Virus record (IMG/VR): IMGVR_UViG_3300027704_000140
Coordinates: 1-25,725 of that record
Length of the DNA stretch: 25,725 nucleotides
From: a virus
Reading direction: 5' to 3' (one strand)
Below the pieces are notes generated by a model, which saw only the letters and a list, made by a program, of their open reading frames with translations, did no database searches and was not told the DNA's origin. The position numbers were made by a program, and so were the translations under genes. This document shows positions 11,661 through 25,246 of the stretch, piece by piece (position 1 is the stretch's first letter; every line of letters begins with the position of its first letter).

Positions 11661-13177
11661 TGGGGGAAAGCCCTTCTAGCTTGCTTGTCGATATGTGTTT
11701 TTTCAGAAATAGTTAGATTCCGGTTATTGCTTTTGTATACGAGGACATCTTCTAGCCGATTAATACCTAAAGAAGCTAAATAACTTGTCGCCGATTCACG
11801 TAACTCCGCAACATTATCCGGGTCACCTACAAACTCTTCAATTAGGTCTTTAGCTTCTTCAATTGGGTCAAATGGTGTCCCTAAGTCTCTTGCGTCATTT
11901 TCCATTTCTAAAATTTTAGAAAAAATATTAGCTTGCGCGGCATTAAACGCATCGCCCTTTAACCGTGCTTCAGCCATATTTGCCGGGACGAAAGCGCCGC
12001 TTGATTTGATTAGTTCTTTTGCTCTGCCCATTCGCCCTGTTTGTTTTGCATTTAAAAGAGTAATTAATTCATCTGTATTTGAAAGGCCGCTTCCTACAAT
12101 CTCACCAACAGTGACTAAATGCGGAGTTCTAAATATTTTTATTTTTAAGGCTGTTGATTTATTTGGATCGTCAAATCTAGCATTTACGCCGTTGTTCTCA
12201 TCAAGCATTGTTTTATATGTGGTCGGCGACATTTCTGCGTTATCAACTAACTCACTTAATATCTTTGCCCGTCTAGCTGTTATTTGTGCATCATTTAGAC
12301 CTTCATTTAATTTAACATCATAAAAATCTAGCATCCCACTTTTCGCAACTTTTCTTAAATCGTCTTCTTCTTGTTGTTCTTTCTTAGCCTGTAGAGCGTC
12401 CATGCGGCTAATATTAGTGATTTGCCCACTTAACAAAGTTCGTATTTTTTCTGGGCCCAAACCCGCAAACGCCATTGCTGTCTCAGGGTCTTTAAAATTG
12501 CCTGTGTTCATTTGTTTAAAAGCGTCAACCATTGACCCCACAGGTCGGGTGTTCAACCATCCAAGAACAGCTTTAAAACTCATGTCTTCTTGAAATTTAA
12601 TTTTTAACTTTGCCCCGGCGGCAGGCTTTATAACACCAGTCATAACCGCATTATTAATGCTTTGTATGCCTGTCGTTAATGCCATGCTTGTTGTAATTTT
12701 ATTGCCTTTTGCACCAAAGCCATTTGAAAGGCTATTAAGATTTATTATTAAATCTCCATTTAAACTTTCAATTTTTCTTTTGTTACCTGCCGCTTTAACG
12801 TCAATTTGAGACTTGGTCGAGAGTGTCGCCCAACTACGATCAAACATCTTGCGGCCTTGAGGCGTAGCAATAATCGACGCGGCATTGTCATAAATAGTTT
12901 GGGCCTCCCCTGCAAAATTTTGCCCTGCAAGGATGCCATCTTGCTTTGAAAGCTTTGTTTCTAATTCAGCGAGTTTAAGTTGCGCTGATACCGTCGCCGT
13001 AGACACTTCGCTAACGGCTTGGGCCTCTACTAGCTTGCCCCCAATAGCCGTCGCTGTTTGACTATGATTCCCTAAAGCGTTGCCAATGTGGTCATCGATC
13101 TTGACGGCAGGAAGCCCGGTCATGCCTGTTGAGCGGGGAAGCCCTTGTTGCCTTTGGAAAGTTGGGATGACAGCCAT
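11657..13177 (-). CDS. Internal virion protein, T7 gp15-position (506 aa)
   Basis: The ATG at 13177 is shared with the stop of the gp14-like gene (TAATG). The product is largely helical and rich in Lys, Ala and Asn, with no membrane segment. It starts MAVIPTFQRQQGLP, and the N-terminal 130 residues look like coiled coil (VSAQLKLAELETKLSK). Order after a gp14-like gene and before a larger ejection protein matches T7 gene 15, though T7 gp15 is longer (747). The inferred role is part of the internal core that is ejected into the periplasm with DNA. The sequence alone does not name the family. Confidence 0.65.
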   Translation of the reverse strand: MAVIPTFQRQQGLPRSTGMTGLPAVKIDDHIGNALGNHSQTATAIGGKLVEAQAVSEVSTATVSAQLKLAELETKLSKQDGILAGQNFAGEAQTIYDNAASIIATPQGRKMFDRSWATLSTKSQIDVKAAGNKRKIESLNGDLIINLNSLSNGFGAKGNKITTSMALTTGIQSINNAVMTGVIKPAAGAKLKIKFQEDMSFKAVLGWLNTRPVGSMVDAFKQMNTGNFKDPETAMAFAGLGPEKIRTLLSGQITNISRMDALQAKKEQQEEDDLRKVAKSGMLDFYDVKLNEGLNDAQITARRAKILSELVDNAEMSPTTYKTMLDENNGVNARFDDPNKSTALKIKIFRTPHLVTVGEIVGSGLSNTDELITLLNAKQTGRMGRAKELIKSSGAFVPANMAEARLKGDAFNAAQANIFSKILEMENDARDLGTPFDPIEEAKDLIEEFVGDPDNVAELRESATSYLASLGINRLEDVLVYKSNNRNLTISEKTHIDKQARRAFPQ

Positions 13178-13854
13178 TACGTTAATAATCCTAAGTTATA
13201 CGCGCCCTTACCCGCTGCCGTAGCAGTGTTTAAATAGCCGCCATATTTTGCTCTCGACGCATTTTGCTTCGCATTAACTGAGGCAAAACGTTGACCGACT
13301 GCCGACGCTCGGCTGGCATCTGCTTCGTTCTGGCCTCGGTACAAAATGGCAAGACGCTCCAACGCGCCTTCAGAACTGGTATCAGCGGCAACATCTAGCG
13401 GGGTATCTTGATTTATGACGACGCCAGACTTCGCATATTTCGTTGTTTGTTTAGACATCAATCGTTTTAACCTGTCGTCGAAAAGGTCGGCCTCAAATTC
13501 AGCGGCTTGCTCTGCCATCACCGCATTATTGTCAGCAATAGCGGCATTGTAATTTGCCATGTGGGCTTGATAATCGTAATTTGCCTGTTGTGTTTGACTT
13601 GAGTAAATACTACCAAATATTCCGCTGGCCGCGCCCAAGGTGGAAACCGTTTGCCCTAAACCGAAAACCCCCGCCGATCCAAACAAGCCAGATGTCGCGG
13701 CAGTTGTAGCATACGCGCCCGGCACAGTTGCAAGCAGGCTAGACGCGGCAACTGAAGACGCAGTTAATCCAGACCCGGCAAGTGCAGCAGTCCCCGCCGC
13801 CGAAAGCCCTGATGCCCCTGTCGCCGCTCCAAACATTGAAATCGGTTCACACAT
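13177..13854 (-). CDS. Internal virion protein, T7 gp14-like
   Basis: 225 residues; T7 gp14 is 196. The N-terminus begins MCEP, as T7 gp14 also begins Met-Cys, and continues with a long Ala/Gly/Ser-rich hydrophobic region to about residue 85 (AGTAALAGSGLTASSVAAS, GLGQTVSTLGAASGIFGSIY). A polar helical part follows (NYDYQAHMANYNAAIADNN, EQAAEFEADLFDDRLKRL) and the sequence ends in a Gly/Ala tail. This layout is typical of gp14-type ejection proteins, which insert in the outer membrane and start the DNA conduit. ATG at 13854 lies just after the tail tubular B stop, with GGAT as a weak ribosome site. The call is supported by both sequence pattern and synteny. Confidence 0.8.
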   Translation of the reverse strand: MCEPISMFGAATGASGLSAAGTAALAGSGLTASSVAASSLLATVPGAYATTAATSGLFGSAGVFGLGQTVSTLGAASGIFGSIYSSQTQQANYDYQAHMANYNAAIADNNAVMAEQAAEFEADLFDDRLKRLMSKQTTKYAKSGVVINQDTPLDVAADTSSEGALERLAILYRGQNEADASRASAVGQRFASVNAKQNASRAKYGGYLNTATAAGKGAYNLGLLT

Positions 13855-13858
13855 TTAA

Positions 13859-16624
13859 TTATCCATCGTTTGTTACTAAGCGCGTTAATATCGCGGTGAT
13901 GTGAATAGGAAGTGGCTGGTCTTGTTTAATGTAAACTTGACCTTCTGTTTCCCAGCCGCCCCGAAATTGTATTTGTTTGTCGCCGCTGAACAAGGGTGGC
14001 GACCCGTCCATTGAACTGGAACCCGCCCGAAATTGGATCTCATCATAATTAATGCCGTCTTCGCTAACCTTGGCCCCAAGCGTTTGGATAAACCGCGCCG
14101 TCAAATCAAAGACCCGCTTGGTCTTGCCTTGGGCGGTTCCATCGTCGGCCCCGGCTTCTGGCCGCAATGTTTTAACAATGCTTTCGTAGCTTAACCCAAT
14201 TTGAACTTCAGAAACTGCCGGAGCTAGACTTGATATGCCGCCAGATGTCACGCTTTGCGCCGCATAAACACTGCCGTCGCCAAGTATGCTGACTGTTTGT
14301 CCTTCAAGATGATGTAGGCCAGAAATTGTTGCTGTCGCTGTCGAATTGTAACTGAGGCCGCTATCGATGAAAAAAGCATTTTTCTTGGTTGAACTTTCCC
14401 GCGTATCAAAAGTCGCTTCCATAAATTCAATGTATCGCCGGGTAACGCCATCGATGGTTCGTTGCACAATCATCCACAACTCTTCCTCGCCATTATTTGA
14501 CGATGGTATGACGGACAAGCTCTCAACTATTGAAATCTCTTGGTTTGTTGTAGTTAGCCTCGCCGTGTCGCTTGATTCGACCGTAAGCGGCGCGGCCCCT
14601 TTGCGGAGTGTTTCTTCGACTGTAACGACAGCGGCGGCAGGGTTCGCCACTGTGAAATCTGCATGAGCATTAATGCGCGTGAATATATTGTCAGCGGTTG
14701 TATTGTTGCTTTCGTTTGGCCGGAAGCCAAAATCGGTGTCGGCTGGTGCGCCACTGCCAGCCGCCTCGCTGGTGAACGTCACTGTTTGCCCGTTAGACTT
14801 TGTAAATTTTAAAACTGTGCCTGCCGCTATGTTTGCAAAATCATCAACGGTGATAGTACACGCGCCAGATACGCCGCCGATCTTGTGGCGATGCCAAGCT
14901 ATGACTTGCTGATCTCTCAAATATGTGAGGCCAACCAATTGACCGTCAGCCTTTACACCCCAAATTGTTGTGTTTGGCTCTTGCTGATATGCAATTTCAG
15001 ATATGCCGCCCTTCGCAACCTGTGGAGACAAGATCGTTAGGTCAGGAGATTGGTAGCTGTCTGATTCAAATGCGTAGGTAAACTCGCGTAACTTTCGTTG
15101 TTGGCGTTGTATAAAAATAACCGTGTTGTCTACACGCACAGGCTTGTGTGTGTGGCTCCCGCGTGTGCCTTCTCTGACGACGCGGACGTTTGTCGGTGTT
15201 AGCGGGTCACTCGTTGTCGAGCCCGATATGACGAACTCACCGCCAACAGTGCCGACAGCCATGACCTTGCCGGGTGACAGCCAGCGGATCGCGTTGACTT
15301 GATCTGTCGCCAAAGTATAAATCACGGGGTCGTCGTCTAGTGTGCCGGGCGTGTGGTTTTCATAGTCGCCGGATTTCGATCCCCACAATGTTTGTGGTTG
15401 CTCGGTTGATCCAGCCCAAAACAATCGTTGTTCGTAAAAGGCGACAGCGGCGGGATAACCGGACGTTCCCGACCATGCACCCAAGCGCCATTTTGTTTCG
15501 CCAGTTGTGCCCCCAAATGTCGCATCAACCGTGACGACGACAACCGTAGTATTTGTAAAAGCAGTGACTGTGGCGTACCCCCACTGGATACCACCATCGC
15601 GCAAAAACTTCCATGTGACGTTATTGTCAACAATCTCATCGCCTTCGCCAGATGGCCCACCCGACCCGGCAGATGTCCCAGCCTTAATGCATTCATAGAC
15701 ATTGCCGGAGTTGCGTTTGACGACGCCAACCGCGTAGCTCGTAGATGCCGCCCAAGCGGCGGCTTGGTGCCCAATGGAGATTAGCCGCCCAACGTCCGTT
15801 GCCGCGAATCCAGCCCCCCCATTAATGCCTGTAACGGCTGATGCAGTTATTGTTTTCGCTGATCCTGTCGTCGCATTTGGAGTAAGTGTCGTCGTCGTTA
15901 AATTTTCGTCTTGATATGGCCCGTCCGTGTAAACAACGTCTTCAATTGTCCACGTTGTGTGGGCAGTCCGAGAAATCTTTTTAGGCGCATAATCCGGGTG
16001 AGCAAGATAAAGAACGTCTGCCGATTGAGCAAATTGGATGTCAAAAAGGTCGTCAGTTTCAAACGTTGTCGCTATGGTGTAAACCCGTGCAGCCGTTCCC
16101 GCCGAACCATAAGTCGTGAATGCGCTTGAGTTTATGTTAACGTCGTCAATATCAGTTAGCTCAAACGTGTTCGTTGCCTTGTTTTTAATCTTATAATATT
16201 TGCCGTTTAGCTCGGTCATGCCGACGACACTTGTTATGTAAACTTCATCGCCGTTTGAATATCCGTGGCTTGTCGCGGTGATCACGCACGGATTAGCTTT
16301 GGTCGCACCAGAGATTGTCTTGTTGGCCTCTAAAATTGCCCCTTGCTCTTTATAAAATCGAGCATACAAATTCCCAAGTTCAATGCAGTAAGCTTGTGTC
16401 GTTGAAAATTCAAATGGGATTAAGCGTGTTTTCGCCGCCGATGATTTGACTTCTTTGACAAATCGTGTGCCGGGTCGCCGGGAAATACCGCCATGCGGCA
16501 TCACCATAAAGTTCTCTAATGTCTCCGCACCATTGTTGTATTTTGCAATATCGACGCGGCCAAACAGTTCTTCTGATAACTCACCAGCGGTAAAGTTGGT
16601 TGCGATAACGCTTACGCGGCTCAT
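13859..16624 (-). CDS. Tail tubular protein B (T7 gp12-like nozzle) with inserted modules
   Basis: 921 residues; T7 gp12 is 794. The start is diagnostic: NFTAGELSEELFGRVDIAKY, then ETLENFMVMPHGGISRRPG. FYEQRLFWAGSTEQPQTLW, an IRWLSPG segment, HTHKPVRVDNTVIFIQR and ELWMIVQRTIDGVTRRYIE follow, as in gp12-type proteins that form the tail nozzle. Three stretches look inserted: about 105-185 (NPCVITATSHGYSNGDEVYI, E1-FCCH-like), about 291-343 (WAASTSYAVGVV to NNVTWKFL, carbohydrate-binding-like), and about 588-697 (FTKSNGQTVTFTSEAAG). These probably decorate the nozzle surface. ATG at 16624 follows the tail tubular A stop at once, and it is probably cotranslated with that gene. Confidence 0.9.
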   Translation of the reverse strand: MSRVSVIATNFTAGELSEELFGRVDIAKYNNGAETLENFMVMPHGGISRRPGTRFVKEVKSSAAKTRLIPFEFSTTQAYCIELGNLYARFYKEQGAILEANKTISGATKANPCVITATSHGYSNGDEVYITSVVGMTELNGKYYKIKNKATNTFELTDIDDVNINSSAFTTYGSAGTAARVYTIATTFETDDLFDIQFAQSADVLYLAHPDYAPKKISRTAHTTWTIEDVVYTDGPYQDENLTTTTLTPNATTGSAKTITASAVTGINGGAGFAATDVGRLISIGHQAAAWAASTSYAVGVVKRNSGNVYECIKAGTSAGSGGPSGEGDEIVDNNVTWKFLRDGGIQWGYATVTAFTNTTVVVVTVDATFGGTTGETKWRLGAWSGTSGYPAAVAFYEQRLFWAGSTEQPQTLWGSKSGDYENHTPGTLDDDPVIYTLATDQVNAIRWLSPGKVMAVGTVGGEFVISGSTTSDPLTPTNVRVVREGTRGSHTHKPVRVDNTVIFIQRQQRKLREFTYAFESDSYQSPDLTILSPQVAKGGISEIAYQQEPNTTIWGVKADGQLVGLTYLRDQQVIAWHRHKIGGVSGACTITVDDFANIAAGTVLKFTKSNGQTVTFTSEAAGSGAPADTDFGFRPNESNNTTADNIFTRINAHADFTVANPAAAVVTVEETLRKGAAPLTVESSDTARLTTTNQEISIVESLSVIPSSNNGEEELWMIVQRTIDGVTRRYIEFMEATFDTRESSTKKNAFFIDSGLSYNSTATATISGLHHLEGQTVSILGDGSVYAAQSVTSGGISSLAPAVSEVQIGLSYESIVKTLRPEAGADDGTAQGKTKRVFDLTARFIQTLGAKVSEDGINYDEIQFRAGSSSMDGSPPLFSGDKQIQFRGGWETEGQVYIKQDQPLPIHITAILTRLVTNDG

Positions 16625-20419: not shown

Positions 20420-22045
20420 TTACCCCTGCGACGGCCCTAGCTGGCCCATTTCAGATATTTGCGCGACTTTAAGGGCGGCGTCTGCCGCTTGTGGCGCGGC
20501 TGACAATCCAGCCTGCATGGCCTCTTGCTGACCTCTTTGGTCGCGCATCCCAGCGATTTCGTCTTGGCTCCGCAAAATTCGTTGTGGTGCCCCGTTGGTA
20601 TCGGCCAAAATGCGCGTGATTTCGTCAGTGTTAAAATTATCCATGACGCCCGGATCGACAGCCGCGATAGGCTGGACCATTTCAAGCGTCCGAAGTATTC
20701 CAACGCCCTCTTCGGCCTTCATGGCGCGAGATAGCGGGGAGACATATTCAATTTCGTATTCGCCGCCAGCCTCAATAAGTGCCGGGGGTAAGGGTGGGAT
20801 TAAACCTTGAGAGTCGAGGATGTCGAACTCACGCTCAATCAGCGGCCCTAGCATCTCGGTTTGCTGCCTACCAATGGTTGGAGCTAATAAAGCGCCCTTT
20901 TCTTGAGCCCGTTGCAAAACTTCGGTCGCGGTCATAGATGGTGTTTCAACCAAGATTTGGAACAAAGTCACTAAAAAAGCGTCATTTATTACTCTTCGGC
21001 GTTGCTCCATCATCTCAAAGCCAATGTCTACCCGCGCTCCCGTTTGTAATGGCTGAATAGGCGGTTGGTTCCGGCCATCCATTCGTGCAAAGGTCGCCGC
21101 TCCGGGGTTCGTGTTTATGGGGAACATAACGCCCTCATCCGCGACTAAAAGGGGTGGATCGACTACTTTTTGCGCGGCACGTATAACCGTCTTTGACATC
21201 TCGTTGATCATTTTGATGTCCGGCAGGATTGTCATGCACGGGCTACGGCCATATGTCTCGCGTGGGCCCGTGACATAACGGCTGACGATGTAAGGCATGG
21301 TTTCAAACCCGCCTTCTTCGATCAAATTTTTTGTCTTAATTTCATAATAGCCAGAGAACCACGGCGTATTTTTGCGGTCGCGCCGGGTTGGATCACGATC
21401 TGTCCGAGGCATAACGACATGGAGAAGCTTAACTTTCTCATCGGGCTTGTCGTTTGCCGTCTTGCGTAAGTCGTCGGATAGGTCGCCGTCTTCAAACATT
21501 CGCATAGCTTGCCGGGCTGAGACTTCAAAGCGTCTAAAGACCGTGTCAATTTGACCATGCTCGTTCTCAGCAATAAAAGCGTCAGCCAAATGGATCGCCC
21601 GGTAGATTGCACCACGGGTCGGGGCTTCATCAACAAAAGTAATGCCCGTACCAAAAGCGCCGAGGCTCATATAGCCTTCATGGGTCTGCCCGGCAAAATT
21701 GGCCTTTGGCGAATACCGATGTGCGAACATTGTCTGTTGGACTTTGTCGAACCAAAGGCGGACTTCATCGTCTCTGTTTAATTCTGGGTTGGTTGATCTT
21801 AGCGTATGCCAAGTTGCACCGCGTGGGGTCAAAAGACTTTCGACAGCGGCGGAGAAACGCTCCAAAGCCAAAGCGGCGGTTGCGTCATAAAGTTTGTGGG
21901 TTCGCTTGTCGCCTTGGGTCCGTTCACCAGTGAACTCGGCAGACCTCGGCAAGACACGCTCGGCGATTTCTTCCCAATGGCTTTCCCAAGTACCGCGACC
22001 CGTTTTTAATGAATCGAAGCGTTTGAAAATTTCGTTGCTGTCCAT
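20420..22045 (-). CDS. Portal (head-to-tail connecting) protein
   Basis: 541 residues; ATG 22045 with AGGGG upstream. The N-terminal pattern (FKRFDSLKTGRGTWESHWEE, IAERVLPRSAEFTG, KLYDATAALALERFSAAVES, LLTPRGATWHTL) is that of the podoviral head-to-tail connector family (Head-tail_con). GAFGTGITFVDE, GRSPCMTILPDIKMINEM and PSMTATEVLQRAQEKGALL are further hallmarks, and the length is normal for the family. It forms the dodecameric ring through which terminase packages DNA and on which the gp11-like adaptor docks. The C-terminal 40 residues are Gln/Ala-rich. It follows three small motif-sharing genes. Confidence 0.95.
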   Translation of the reverse strand: MDSNEIFKRFDSLKTGRGTWESHWEEIAERVLPRSAEFTGERTQGDKRTHKLYDATAALALERFSAAVESLLTPRGATWHTLRSTNPELNRDDEVRLWFDKVQQTMFAHRYSPKANFAGQTHEGYMSLGAFGTGITFVDEAPTRGAIYRAIHLADAFIAENEHGQIDTVFRRFEVSARQAMRMFEDGDLSDDLRKTANDKPDEKVKLLHVVMPRTDRDPTRRDRKNTPWFSGYYEIKTKNLIEEGGFETMPYIVSRYVTGPRETYGRSPCMTILPDIKMINEMSKTVIRAAQKVVDPPLLVADEGVMFPINTNPGAATFARMDGRNQPPIQPLQTGARVDIGFEMMEQRRRVINDAFLVTLFQILVETPSMTATEVLQRAQEKGALLAPTIGRQQTEMLGPLIEREFDILDSQGLIPPLPPALIEAGGEYEIEYVSPLSRAMKAEEGVGILRTLEMVQPIAAVDPGVMDNFNTDEITRILADTNGAPQRILRSQDEIAGMRDQRGQQEAMQAGLSAAPQAADAALKVAQISEMGQLGPSQG

Positions 22046-22049
22046 ATAG

Positions 22050-22256
22050 CTAGACCCCTAAAAATGTGTTTTTGCGTAAGGCATCTACGCCGCTGTTACG
22101 CGGGGTGCCCGACAATATTGTTGAGCCGTTTGTACCGCCGCCGCTGGTCGAAGCGTTGGCGCGTTGGGCTTGGTCTAGCCTGCCGCCCGGCGATGACGAC
22201 GCCATCTTTGTGCCGCCAGATTGTTTCTTATTTCCGTAAGCACCGGGGACGCACAT
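22050..22256 (-). CDS. Small protein with shared C-terminal motif (copy 3, next to portal)
   Basis: 68 residues from ATG 22256, which begins MCVPGAYGNKKQ. An upstream in-frame ATG at 22292 was rejected because the upstream gene ends at TAA 22258-22260 and the MC start recurs in the neighbours. The middle is Gly/Ser-rich and polar (MASSSPGGRLDQAQRANAST). The C-terminus, STILSG, then a spacer, then NTFLGV, matches the endings of the two genes before it. No membrane segment or enzymatic motif. It lies four bases before the portal gene, so a role in portal or packaging assembly is inferred only. Confidence 0.72.
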   Translation of the reverse strand: MCVPGAYGNKKQSGGTKMASSSPGGRLDQAQRANASTSGGGTNGSTILSGTPRNSGVDALRKNTFLGV

Positions 22257-22257
22257 A

Positions 22258-22782
22258 TTAAGCGCCCAACAAAGTGCGGCCAATGTTCGCACGGCCTTTA
22301 ATGCCCTGTGAGCCCGTCAACATGGTTGATTGTCGGTTTTGTCTTTTCCGGCTTGGAGCAAGGACGGCCTCATCGCCGCCGAGATCGTCATCTATGTCTT
22401 TAGCTAAAGATGCCGTTTTTTTTGAATTGGCTTTTACTTTGCCAGCAACGGCGCGTTTTGGGTTGCTGGAAGAACCGCTGTCGTTAGGAGACGGTGTGCC
22501 TGCCTTACGTTTGTTATCGTTCATCAAAGCAAAGGTTCTGGCCGCACCGAGCGGGATGCCGCCGGGAATAATCGGTTGGGCGGCAGCTAAAATGCCTTCC
22601 CCGATTTGCCCTTTGTTATGCGGGGAAAAGGGGTTATTGGCGATGCTGACAGCTTGGTCCGCACTTAAATTTGTTCTATTTGGCGTCATTGACGGGTTAG
22701 CTTTATTCCCGTCATGGTTTCTGTTTTGACGAATGCCCCCGGCTGAACCGCCGCCATCGCCGCCGTCATTAGATTCACACAT
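22258..22782 (-). CDS. Protein with shared C-terminal motif (copy 2)
   Basis: 174 residues from ATG 22782, beginning MCESNDGGDGGG. Very polar: Gly-rich N-terminus, Asn/Lys-rich middle, and KRAVAGKVKANSKKTASLAK followed by the acidic patch DIDDDLGGDE. A short more hydrophobic part (IGEGILAAAQPIIPGGIPLG) lies in the middle. The C-terminus (RQSTMLTGSQG, then NIGRTLLGA) matches copies 1 and 3. It starts one base after the stop of copy 1 (TAATATGTG), exactly as copy 3 does after this gene. It looks mostly disordered. Function unknown. Confidence 0.75.
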   Translation of the reverse strand: MCESNDGGDGGGSAGGIRQNRNHDGNKANPSMTPNRTNLSADQAVSIANNPFSPHNKGQIGEGILAAAQPIIPGGIPLGAARTFALMNDNKRKAGTPSPNDSGSSSNPKRAVAGKVKANSKKTASLAKDIDDDLGGDEAVLAPSRKRQNRQSTMLTGSQGIKGRANIGRTLLGA

Positions 22783-22783
22783 A

Positions 22784-23008
22784 TTACGCGCCCAGCAATG
22801 TTTTGCCGACGTTAGCAGAGGCGGTGTCACCGCTTGAGCCCGTCAAAATTGTTGATTTGCGACCTTTAGCCATTAATCTCCGACGCCGGGTAGCCGTCGC
22901 GGCTTCGTTCACGGCGGGATCGTCTCGCGTTGGCAGCGGCTCGACAACCACAGGGGCTGGCATTGGGGGCGGTTTTGGCATTTTTGGGGCCAATGGTCCT
23001 ACGCACAT
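22784..23008 (-). CDS. Small protein with shared C-terminal motif (copy 1)
   Basis: 74 residues from ATG 23008 (MCVGPLAPKMPKPPPMP), with GGAG nine bases upstream; the ATG at 23023 is possible but breaks the MC start seen in the other two. Pro-rich N-terminus, basic centre (ATRRRRLMAKGRK), and a C-terminus STILTGSSG followed by NVGKTLLGA. Its first 143 bases overlap the 3' end of the gp13-like gene in another frame. The three tandem genes likely arose by duplication or share a docking motif. Confidence 0.72.
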   Translation of the reverse strand: MCVGPLAPKMPKPPPMPAPVVVEPLPTRDDPAVNEAATATRRRRLMAKGRKSTILTGSSGDTASANVGKTLLGA

Positions 23009-23507
23009 AATCGAAATCTCCATCGCGTTCTAATCGTGAGCGCGTCCATGAATAACAATGAAACTTTTTCCGGGTCGGGCCGTAGTCTTCAACTGTGGCC
23101 TCTTTGGTCGCACCTAACATCTCAAGCCATTTATGGGCGACGTCGTGGCCTTCCATGCTCCAGCAATCCGCTCTAACGGCTCCGTCAGCAACAAGGGCTG
23201 GTATTAATTCATTCCTTATGTGCCGGGTCACCGTCAACGCCACTTTGGGCCATCGATCTGTCGTGAACATCCACACACTCCAGAAATTCGGGCGCGTCAT
23301 GTTTGCCCCCCACGTAGCGACAGGCATCACCCCAGAGAGCGCAACATGGGCCAGCCCGCCAGATACAGATATCCGCTGGGCTAAGTCTTCTGGTTTCCCC
23401 GTCCATGTCAGCGGTAATATTTCTTCAGCATCTAACGCCCTCATATTTCGGGCTATGTAAACCAAGTCGCCGTAACAGGCGGGGATGATTTCAGCCAAAT
23501 GCGACAT
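22866..23507 (-). CDS. T7 gp13-like protein with GNAT-like fold, extended C-terminus
   Basis: 213 residues; ATG 23507, overlapping the terminase end by 17 nt. Residues 1-155 fit the gp13-like (DUF2833) family, which has an acetyltransferase-like fold: ACYGDLVYIARNMRALDAEE, LAHVALSGVMPVATWGANM, NFWSVWMFTTDRWPKVAL, CWSMEGHDVAHKWLEMLGA, KFHCYSW. T7 gp13 is about 138 residues and is needed for head morphogenesis. Here about 50 further residues follow, basic and Ala/Arg-rich (RAAANARRSRRERSRDG), and these lie over the first part of the next gene. The tail may exist only because of the overlap. Enzyme activity is not implied. Confidence 0.78.
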   Translation of the reverse strand: MSHLAEIIPACYGDLVYIARNMRALDAEEILPLTWTGKPEDLAQRISVSGGLAHVALSGVMPVATWGANMTRPNFWSVWMFTTDRWPKVALTVTRHIRNELIPALVADGAVRADCWSMEGHDVAHKWLEMLGATKEATVEDYGPTRKKFHCYSWTRSRLERDGDFDYVRRTIGPKNAKTAPNASPCGCRAAANARRSRRERSRDGYPASEING

Positions 23508-24834
23508 CCGGGGCCGTCATCACGGGTTGCCCATTCGATAGCCGCCCGGTTCTAGCAACCTGTCTAAAATCATCGTCATTATCGCGGAGCCCTAAAGCGC
23601 CGTATCTAAAACTATCGACGGCATGACTTGACCAGTCGTGGTTTGGCCTGTCTTTCCAGTCGCCAGTCCGGTCGTTAAACTGTCGGTGATAATGTCTCAG
23701 TGCCTTTAAGCCCTCGGCACAATTGCCGCGATCGTAATGGCACTTGGGGATTAACGCTCTGATCGCTTCAATGCCGTCCATGACGGCTAGTTTAGGTACA
23801 ACGGTTGGGCGAACCCCCAAGCTCATCAGAATTTCATAGCGGCTGTTTCCCGATCCGAGTTCTCGGACCATAACGTCGTGGGGGAACAGATGCCGATCAT
23901 AGGTATACGGCCTCGCCTGTAATTCCTTAATGTAGTGGTGTAATCCTTCGCCCGTATTTTCGTAGTAATCAATAACTCTGACGACGTTTTCACGCGGCAA
24001 CTGTTGGTAAAACCAAATCGCCGTTGCGTCAGAAATGCCTAAGTCAAAGCTAGTTGTTACAGGGAGATTTGGCTCCCACGGCACAGAGCCGATCTGCCCC
24101 TTCGTATCGATGGCATCTAATTGCGTAGCAAAGAAAGCCCCGACCCTCGCGGCGCTCCAACTGACTTCAAATTCCTGTTGATATTGGCTTTCATCCATCG
24201 TCGCCTTGGCAGCATCAAGCTCTTTCTGAGCCAAGACCCCCGTCTCACTAGCCGGGAAACGCATGGCAAACCATTCGTCGTCGTCTTTTTCCATGCGCTC
24301 TAAAGCGTAATCGTAAATTTCCTTAAATTGGTTCTCGCCCTTCGGCGTCCCGATCCACAAACATTTTCCGGTCCCGAAATCTGAAAGGGCTGGCCTCACG
24401 ATCTCCGGGTATAGCCGGGCGTTCATGTCGGCAAATTCGTCTAAACAACACGCATCTAAGCGTAAACCCCGAAGGCTGTCCGGGTTCTCGGCCCCTAGCA
24501 ACCAGATCCGCTTCCCGTCCGGCAAGTCGCACCGCAACTCTGCTTCGTTAAACTTAACGCCCGGAATGACCCCGGCGTAATCCCGAAGCATTTGCCAAGC
24601 AATACGCTTACTTTGGCCGTAAGTCGGGCTAATATACGCCCCTTGAGCCCTTGGATGGGGACAAGTAAGGATTTCCTTCAAAAGCCAGTTAATAGCCATG
24701 ACCGTTTTGCCGAAGCGTCTGTGACAACTGGCGACCGAAAAACGCTTATAACCCCGATCAAATTTTGCCTGCAATGGCCGGGGCTTATATGGGATTATAA
24801 TTTTCTGGGTTTTAGCTATCGGCTTGCTCCCCAA
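23491..24834 (-). CDS. Terminase large subunit
   Basis: 447 residues. Walker A is CHRRFGKT at about 37-44, Walker B with catalytic Glu is CCLDE at 129-133, and the coupling motif is IGTPKG at 161-166. The RNase H-like nuclease starts at TTSFDLGISDA with Asp264. These give the usual N-terminal ATPase and C-terminal nuclease that pump and cut DNA at the portal. The start appears to be TTG 24834, inside the run TTTTTTGGGG and overlapping the oxygenase gene by 23 nt; there is no good ribosome site and no in-frame ATG before residue 46, so translation probably depends on coupling. No small terminase gene was recognised nearby. Confidence 0.95.
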   Translation of the reverse strand: MGSKPIAKTQKIIIPYKPRPLQAKFDRGYKRFSVASCHRRFGKTVMAINWLLKEILTCPHPRAQGAYISPTYGQSKRIAWQMLRDYAGVIPGVKFNEAELRCDLPDGKRIWLLGAENPDSLRGLRLDACCLDEFADMNARLYPEIVRPALSDFGTGKCLWIGTPKGENQFKEIYDYALERMEKDDDEWFAMRFPASETGVLAQKELDAAKATMDESQYQQEFEVSWSAARVGAFFATQLDAIDTKGQIGSVPWEPNLPVTTSFDLGISDATAIWFYQQLPRENVVRVIDYYENTGEGLHHYIKELQARPYTYDRHLFPHDVMVRELGSGNSRYEILMSLGVRPTVVPKLAVMDGIEAIRALIPKCHYDRGNCAEGLKALRHYHRQFNDRTGDWKDRPNHDWSSHAVDSFRYGALGLRDNDDDFRQVARTGRLSNGQPVMTAPDVAFG

Positions 24835-25246
24835 AAAACATGATTAGCGCCTTCCGCTCACCACTATTTCGCGTTACTTGATGGGCATTATCGCGGCCAC
24901 CAGAAAAGAATAATAAATCCAAATAATGAAAAATTGGGTTGTCGGGGGTATCCCTAAAATAAAAACCGCCCCCCGAAAATTCCTTGGGGTCTGTCAGCAA
25001 AATAGACGCCGAATATTTGCACCAAGCCATGTGGTCAATCGTGCCAGTGTCTTGATGCCAAGGGTGACCTTCCGGCCGATGCTCGACCCGGCAATACGAA
25101 GGCGAAACCGTCGATATGGGGGCAAATTCACGGATGATCCTAACAAGCCCAGAAACCTTCGGGTCTTCAAAATCTAAATATCCAACGGCCTCAGATAACG
25201 CATTTGCCTGTGCAACCGTAATTGCGCTCGGCAGACACGCCCTCAA
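24812..25246 (-). CDS. 2OG-Fe(II) dioxygenase
   Basis: 144 residues. Iron ligands His64 and Asp66 in HPWHQDTG, distal His122 in DNAHQVT, and Arg131 (GERKALIMFF) for 2-oxoglutarate are all present at normal spacing, with the strand FSGGGFYFRD between. The fold is the double-stranded beta helix of prolyl-hydroxylase-like enzymes. Such phage enzymes oxidise a protein side chain or a base using O2 and 2-oxoglutarate; the substrate here is unknown. The start is TTG 25246, since no in-frame ATG exists before the first stop upstream at 25280-25282; it lies two bases after the neighbour's TAG. The 3' end overlaps terminase by 23 nt, linking their expression. Confidence 0.85.
   Translation of the reverse strand: MRACLPSAITVAQANALSEAVGYLDFEDPKVSGLVRIIREFAPISTVSPSYCRVEHRPEGHPWHQDTGTIDHMAWCKYSASILLTDPKEFSGGGFYFRDTPDNPIFHYLDLLFFSGGRDNAHQVTRNSGERKALIMFFGEQADS

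Follow-up and report, generated by a model that had tools for sequence, protein, structure and literature searches.

The DNA considered here, which we call the window, is a stretch of 25,725 nucleotides from a virus (IMG/VR record IMGVR_UViG_3300027704_000140). Its minus strand carries, in order, genes for terminase, a gp13-like protein, three small proteins (A, B and C), portal, a Bbp19-like protein and a protease/scaffold-like protein, followed by the capsid and tail genes. ORF calls placed the three tandem reading frames upstream of portal, encoding 74, 174 and 68 residues, where an earlier note made from the sequence alone had described them. As that note had also said, all three begin with ATG-TGY, encoding Met-Cys, and the A/B and B/C junctions are identical. 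The features used in the analysis were:

24834-23491, minus strand: terminase
22866-23507, minus strand: gp13-like internal virion protein (phrog_308, E 2.3e-11), with a 143-nt overlap with gene A
22784-23008, minus strand: gene A (gene 1), 74 residues; starts MCVGPLAPKMPK, is proline-rich, and has TRDDP, RRRR and the tail; a relative of epsilon15 gp3
22787-22867, minus strand: tail of A, KGRKSTILTGSSGDTASANVGKTLLGA (profile match at 22787-22885, E 2.8e-17)
22778-22786, minus strand: A/B junction, TAATATGTG (stop, 1 nt, Met-Cys start)
22258-22782, minus strand: gene B (gene 2), 174 residues; Met-Cys and a Gly/Asp-rich start, an NPFS...PGG segment, a disordered middle and the tail
22261-22335, minus strand: tail of B, RQSTMLTGSQGIKGRANIGRTLLGA (profile match at 22261-22350, E 1.5e-14)
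22252-22260, minus strand: B/C junction, TAATATGTG, from reading of the sequence
22050-22256, minus strand: gene C (gene 3), 68 residues; Met-Cys, QSxGxK, RLDQAQR, GGGT and a variant tail
22053-22127, minus strand: variant tail of C, GSTILSGTPRNSGVDALRKNTFLGV (profile-profile P 8e-4 against the tail profile)
20420-22045, minus strand: portal, or head-tail connector (PF12236, E 6e-131)
13177-13854, minus strand: gp14-like internal virion protein (phrog_418, E 7e-18), starting Met-Cys (MCEPISMFG)

The block does not lie exactly between the gp13-like gene and portal, as had been claimed. The gp13-like ORF (23507-22866) runs into gene A in another frame over positions 22866-23008, which adds about 48 residues to the gp13-like product. 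In several relatives (e.g. L007, L027 and L073) this ORF ends just before gene A, so the overlap in the window looks like a later read-through. The slot of gene C, directly before portal, is conserved in relatives.

Further observations concern other genes. An ORF beside terminase (24812-25246) has a weak match to 2OG-Fe(II) oxygenases (PF13640, E 0.02) with an HxD...H pattern, and an oxygenase/cupin-like gene is located between the terminase and portal genes of Limnohabitans phage DC33 (L098 1139-1765). The nozzle-like tail protein at 13859-16624 (phrog_376) has an E1_FCCH match over residues 115-181 (PF16190, E 5e-11).

The shared C-terminal tail and its distribution

The two-part tails read as STILTGSSGDTASANVGKTLLGA in A, STMLTGSQGIKGRANIGRTLLGA in B and STILSGTPRNSGVDALRKNTFLGV in C. 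We built a tail profile (A3) from relatives together with A and B of the window. In a search of the window, A3 matched A and B and nothing else, and the tail of gene C gave no match. When a profile of the relatives of C was compared with the tail profile, the final 24 columns aligned and the ends were in register (pairwise P 8e-4). Because C was missed by A3 but its relatives aligned in register, we conclude that C carries a diverged version of the tail. The common tail proposed for all three proteins therefore holds for A and B, with C contributing a variant. The sharing of the ends is real and far beyond chance.

The tail is constrained as protein. In a set of 61 different tails, we found all four codons each for Ser, Thr and Gly and all six for Leu, and both TGT and TGC occur at Cys2. 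Since codons vary freely in the tail, the constraint acts on the protein. In 47 slot-A proteins, Met1, Cys2, Gly49, Thr53 and Gly60 were invariant, and Ser52, Ala65 and Leu71-Gly73 were nearly so. As a separate observation, the LLG near the stop is often written TTA-GGA/GGG in relatives, which could also serve in ribosome binding for the gene that follows within a few bases; in the window, the near-stop LLG codons are at 22261-22269 and 22787-22795.

The position of the tail is highly specific. In 80 IMG/VR loci, which were picked by portal, a loose tail pattern was found at the C-termini of ORFs upstream of portal in most loci and never on the opposite strand. Comparing portal positions with match coordinates in 33 whole virus records, we found A3 matches in 27 records at 38 places, all 38 at a C-terminus and no more than 1 kb upstream of the portal gene. 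Since portal or tail had been the criterion for choosing these records, we also searched 369 bacterial genomes, which had not been selected in this way. This gave three matches, all directly upstream of a PF12236-type portal of a prophage; the genomes were drawn from the class of one Klebsiella genome, and one of the three matches is the prophage of that central genome. The pattern search suggested in the earlier note thus placed the tail at C-termini upstream of portal. Its motif was neither absent from related phages nor free to vary in its residues, either of which the note had counted against its proposal.

The tail was present in epsilon15 gp3, phiV10, Klebsiella, Pseudomonas phages HU1, PfDIW6 and Komp, Xanthomonas phage Olaya, Caulobacter phage RapA, Bordetella phage BPP-1 (Bbp22), Limnohabitans phage DC33 and Acinetobacter phage Ab9. 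The pelagiphages HTVC034P, HTVC203P and Baldr have two copies each. These relatives are annotated as hypothetical or without function, and in one case mislabelled as portal. Scans of viral contigs with single proteins recovered near relatives only; the tail itself persists in phages with a portal only about 25-50% identical to that of the window. The profile had no match in the whole records of T7, ZP6, phiVC8, YeP4, Piluca and Vibrio 1.138, of which YeP4 and Piluca have degenerate-looking ends. With no tail detected in T7 or in five phages that have this type of portal, the machine in general does not depend on it. In a very widespread group of podophages, the portal gene is preceded by one or several genes for very small, mostly disordered proteins with common ends.

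Gene slots, variable middles and the N-terminus

The ORFs upstream of portal in the IMG/VR loci fall into three slots, corresponding to A, B and C. Slot A follows the pattern MCxGPxAPKxP...PPTRDDPxVN...RRR...KGRSSTILTG..GDxxxANVGKTLLG, with a proline-rich, basic middle. Slot B has Met-Cys, a variable middle and often the tail. Slot C follows MC..QSxGxK...RLDQAQR...GGGT...TILxGxPRNSGVDALRKTTLLGV and has a weakly predicted helix at residues 23-37. The middles had been described as unrelated and mostly disordered. AlphaFold2 gave little confident structure (mean pLDDT 58 for C and 45 for B), which is consistent with disorder in B and C, and these models were too uncertain for fold searches. The middles are not without conservation: each holds a segment common to relatives in the same slot (TRDDP and RRRR in A, LSxxxA...NPxS...PGG in B, RLDQAQR in C). 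Profile searches of the PDB with the A and C families matched no chain.

Slot B is diverse: at one extreme are Pro-Ala repeats, and at the other are long proteins in which Gly-rich hydrophobic segments lie close to the end (L057, L058, L062 and L044). In three of these relatives (L058 3481-4020, L057 2900-3439 and L062) the segment near the C-terminus resembles a glycine zipper (VGLGVSTLIGGPLGFIAGRAARG), and its sequence suggests a role in membrane insertion. In some relatives (L010, L058 and L060), folded-looking domains stand behind a slot-C-like Met-Cys start. Met-Cys genes with folded-looking domains but no tail also occur upstream of portal (L010 242-583, L058 4346-4774 and L022 4657-4989), and some of the tail-less genes share the slot-C start MCTPDLYKQMGG, as if the N-terminus had been swapped between genes.

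The Met-Cys start is concentrated in this part of the genome. Of the 35 annotated genes located between terminase and portal, 8 have it, compared with 0 of 128 neighboring genes (P 2e-6); counting Met-Cys or Met-Gly starts, the numbers were 19 of 35 and 2 of 128. The small proteins share their N-termini with the gp14-like core protein, which starts Met-Cys in the window, in T7, in epsilon15 and in nearly all relatives read (13 of 14 places, two of these at a second possible start). In HTVC203P and Komp, both the gp14-like protein and the small proteins start Met-Gly, and in BPP-1 the gp14-like and small proteins both start Met-Ser-Gly-Ala. Cys2 in the small proteins went with Cys2 in gp14 (8 of 8 versus 1 of 8, P 0.0014, counting each phage or clade once), with HU1 as the exception; this correlation is only suggestive because the gp14 start codons were picked by the analyst and several of the phages are related, a kinship that the P-value ignores. 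A small protein of phage Ab9 (L097 1520-1807) combines a gp14-type N-terminus (phrog_418 positions 1-50, E 1.2e-4) with an STxLTG...LLG tail.

Proposed role of the shared ends

The earlier note had proposed that the tail is a docking peptide for repeated sites on one partner. A docking tail fits the data best, because it is conserved as protein, sits at the C-terminus of unrelated middles and is found only upstream of portal; terminase and capsid, two of the partners named in that note, received no support here. The N-terminal Met-Cys probably matters just as much, as a second tag, since portal-bound gp14 has Met-Cys and T7 gp6.7 binds the portal barrel by its Met-Cys N-terminus (PMC11784390). 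Judged by analogy, both ends would most likely be address tags that fix the proteins at the portal/tail vertex, as in T7 gp6.7 and gp7.3. On balance we favor the view that A, B and C are minor components of the virion, located at its portal/tail vertex, and that they act in the manner of gp6.7 and gp7.3, with their ends docking as proposed here.

A possible course of events is as follows. The initiator Met would be removed, as expected from Cys being a small second residue, and the Cys-led N-terminus would dock against the outer face of the 12-fold portal barrel, beside the N-terminus of gp14 or in a site of the same kind. For the GRxSTxLTG...TLLG tail, the docking site would be another repeated surface within the same assembly, with the adaptor/nozzle junction or a core protein as the likeliest candidates. 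Between the two ends, the disordered middles would bridge the distance and carry whatever is required by the phage in question. Upon infection, the proteins would exit with gp14 and help to build the exit channel. We infer the virion presence, binding, partner and ejection of A, B and C in this scheme, the partner of each end being modeled on T7.

The ends may represent something more general. Middles range widely, including folded-looking domains behind Met-Cys starts, and for this reason we also put forward a reading with exchangeable cargo. Tentatively, the Cys-led N-terminal tag (shared with gp14) and the STxLTG...TLLG C-terminal tag would form a portal-vertex address code of podophages, by which bearers of one or both tags are loaded at the portal and delivered to the host cell ahead of the DNA. 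Such cargo might include membrane-active glycine-rich proteins and the small folded domains of relatives, a suggestion we make with equal reserve.

The strongest alternative differs from the favored explanation in the partner. The tail might tag a single core or tail protein other than portal (a gp14-like, gp15-like or nozzle protein), with adjacency to portal being inherited operon order. This has an appreciable, though minority, chance of being correct: the tail of T7 gp7.3 binds nozzle and not portal, and the order of many genes is conserved in these phages, but we found no gene whose presence tracks the tail. We think it unlikely that A, B and C are assembly helpers whose tail binds portal or scaffold while the prohead is being assembled or terminase docks, and which are gone before or at packaging. 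Small size and disorder would suit a chaperone-like role, as would the fixed position between the terminase and portal genes. Against this, the Met-Cys start covaries with that of gp14, a virion core protein; the Ab9 chimera joins a gp14-type N-terminus to the tail; and the T7 counterparts reside in the virion.

Tandem duplication by itself, with A, B and C as decaying paralogues and their ends as functionless remnants of ancestry, would account for the similar ends and identical junctions. It is very improbable given that A and C retain slot-specific sequences across many phages, that the ends are conserved while middles and codons change, and that the tail persists across such divergent portals. 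A constraint on DNA or RNA, such as ribosome binding or coupling through TAATATGTG, might explain the junction repeats and the frequent TTA-GGA/GGG, but for the motif as a whole it is refuted by the diversity of codons in the tail and at Cys2, and we give it almost no weight.

Comparison with known systems

Gene A is a member of PHROG 831 (E 3.3e-19, residues 11-74) and is encoded, like that family, between terminase and portal. Gene B matched PHROG 831 through its tail alone (residues 145-174, E 1.4e-5), and gene C matched no family up to E 1 in a search with 67 of its 68 residues and with a full-length relative. PHROG 831, which includes epsilon15 gp3, a phiV10 protein and a Klebsiella prophage protein, has the same position, Met-Cys start and tail, and no recorded function. 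Its phages have one copy each, whereas the window has three genes. In the literature searched, mostly openly accessible, we found neither virion proteomics nor a structure for any protein with the tail, and the PDB contained no such structure. With the proposed role, an unannotated family of many short-tailed phages (epsilon15, BPP-1, pelagiphages, marine phages and prophages) gains a location and a testable function. The genes can be searched for by their signature, and binding sites can be sought directly for the two short peptides.

The gp14 proteins of T7 and epsilon15 (phrog_418) have the Met-Cys N-terminus of the window proteins, and it is their N-terminal 50 positions that the Ab9 protein matches; they differ in having no tail and in being encoded downstream among the core genes.

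The closest functional parallels are in T7. By cryo-EM, 12 copies of gp6.7 encircle the portal barrel through residues 2-15, and six copies of gp7.3 are seen through residues 84-98 on the nozzle, where it meets the adaptor; most of the remainder of both proteins is unresolved (PMC11784390). Gp6.7 exits with gp14 (PMC11784390) to build the outer-membrane channel, and gp7.3 aids nozzle assembly. Both were detected as injected into cells (PMC2525648). Such small ejection proteins were not readily identifiable in the T7-like phages Peru-2 and ICP3 (PMC13320782).

Gp6.7 (phrog_1391; PDB 9jyy; MCFSPKIKTPK) resembles A in its Met-Cys start and MCxxP..K.PK-like lead. It too has about 70-90 residues, is largely disordered, is encoded shortly upstream of portal, and has conserved ends and a variable middle. 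Profile comparison aligned the first 11 columns of A and gp6.7 (P 0.02) and the RRRR..GRKST of A with RKKARAGGKKS of gp7.3 (P 0.004), each a single comparison over a short or biased segment. Whole-protein similarity to gp6.7 was not significant, and A had a weak match to phrog_1320, the gp7.3 family (E 0.15). Gp7.3 (phrog_1320; PDB 9jyz) has a disordered, variable body and a near-invariant basic C-terminal tail, and is also encoded upstream of portal, but its tail (KKSLSVARSSGGGINI) is unlike those of the window, the tail profile has no match in it, and it starts Met-Gly.

Assignment to the gp6.7 family by homology failed beyond the 11 N-terminal columns, gp6.7 having no detected STxLTG...LLG tail (tail comparison P 0.56), and assignment to the gp7.3 family by its conserved tail KKSLSVARSSGGGIN failed as well (P 0.16), these again being single comparisons of short segments. 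The sequence links to both proteins are weak and suggestive, not proof of homology, so we limit the claim to working like gp6.7 and gp7.3, rather than membership in their families. Map position is common to the window genes and T7 genes 6.7 and 7.3, and Baldr has tail-GNAT-tail where T7 has 6.7-7-7.3. With the proposed role, small ejection proteins of the kind known from T7 would also occur in phages that do not belong to the T7 group. Gp6.7 and gp7.3 are built with fixed ends and loose middles, and the window proteins have the same design.
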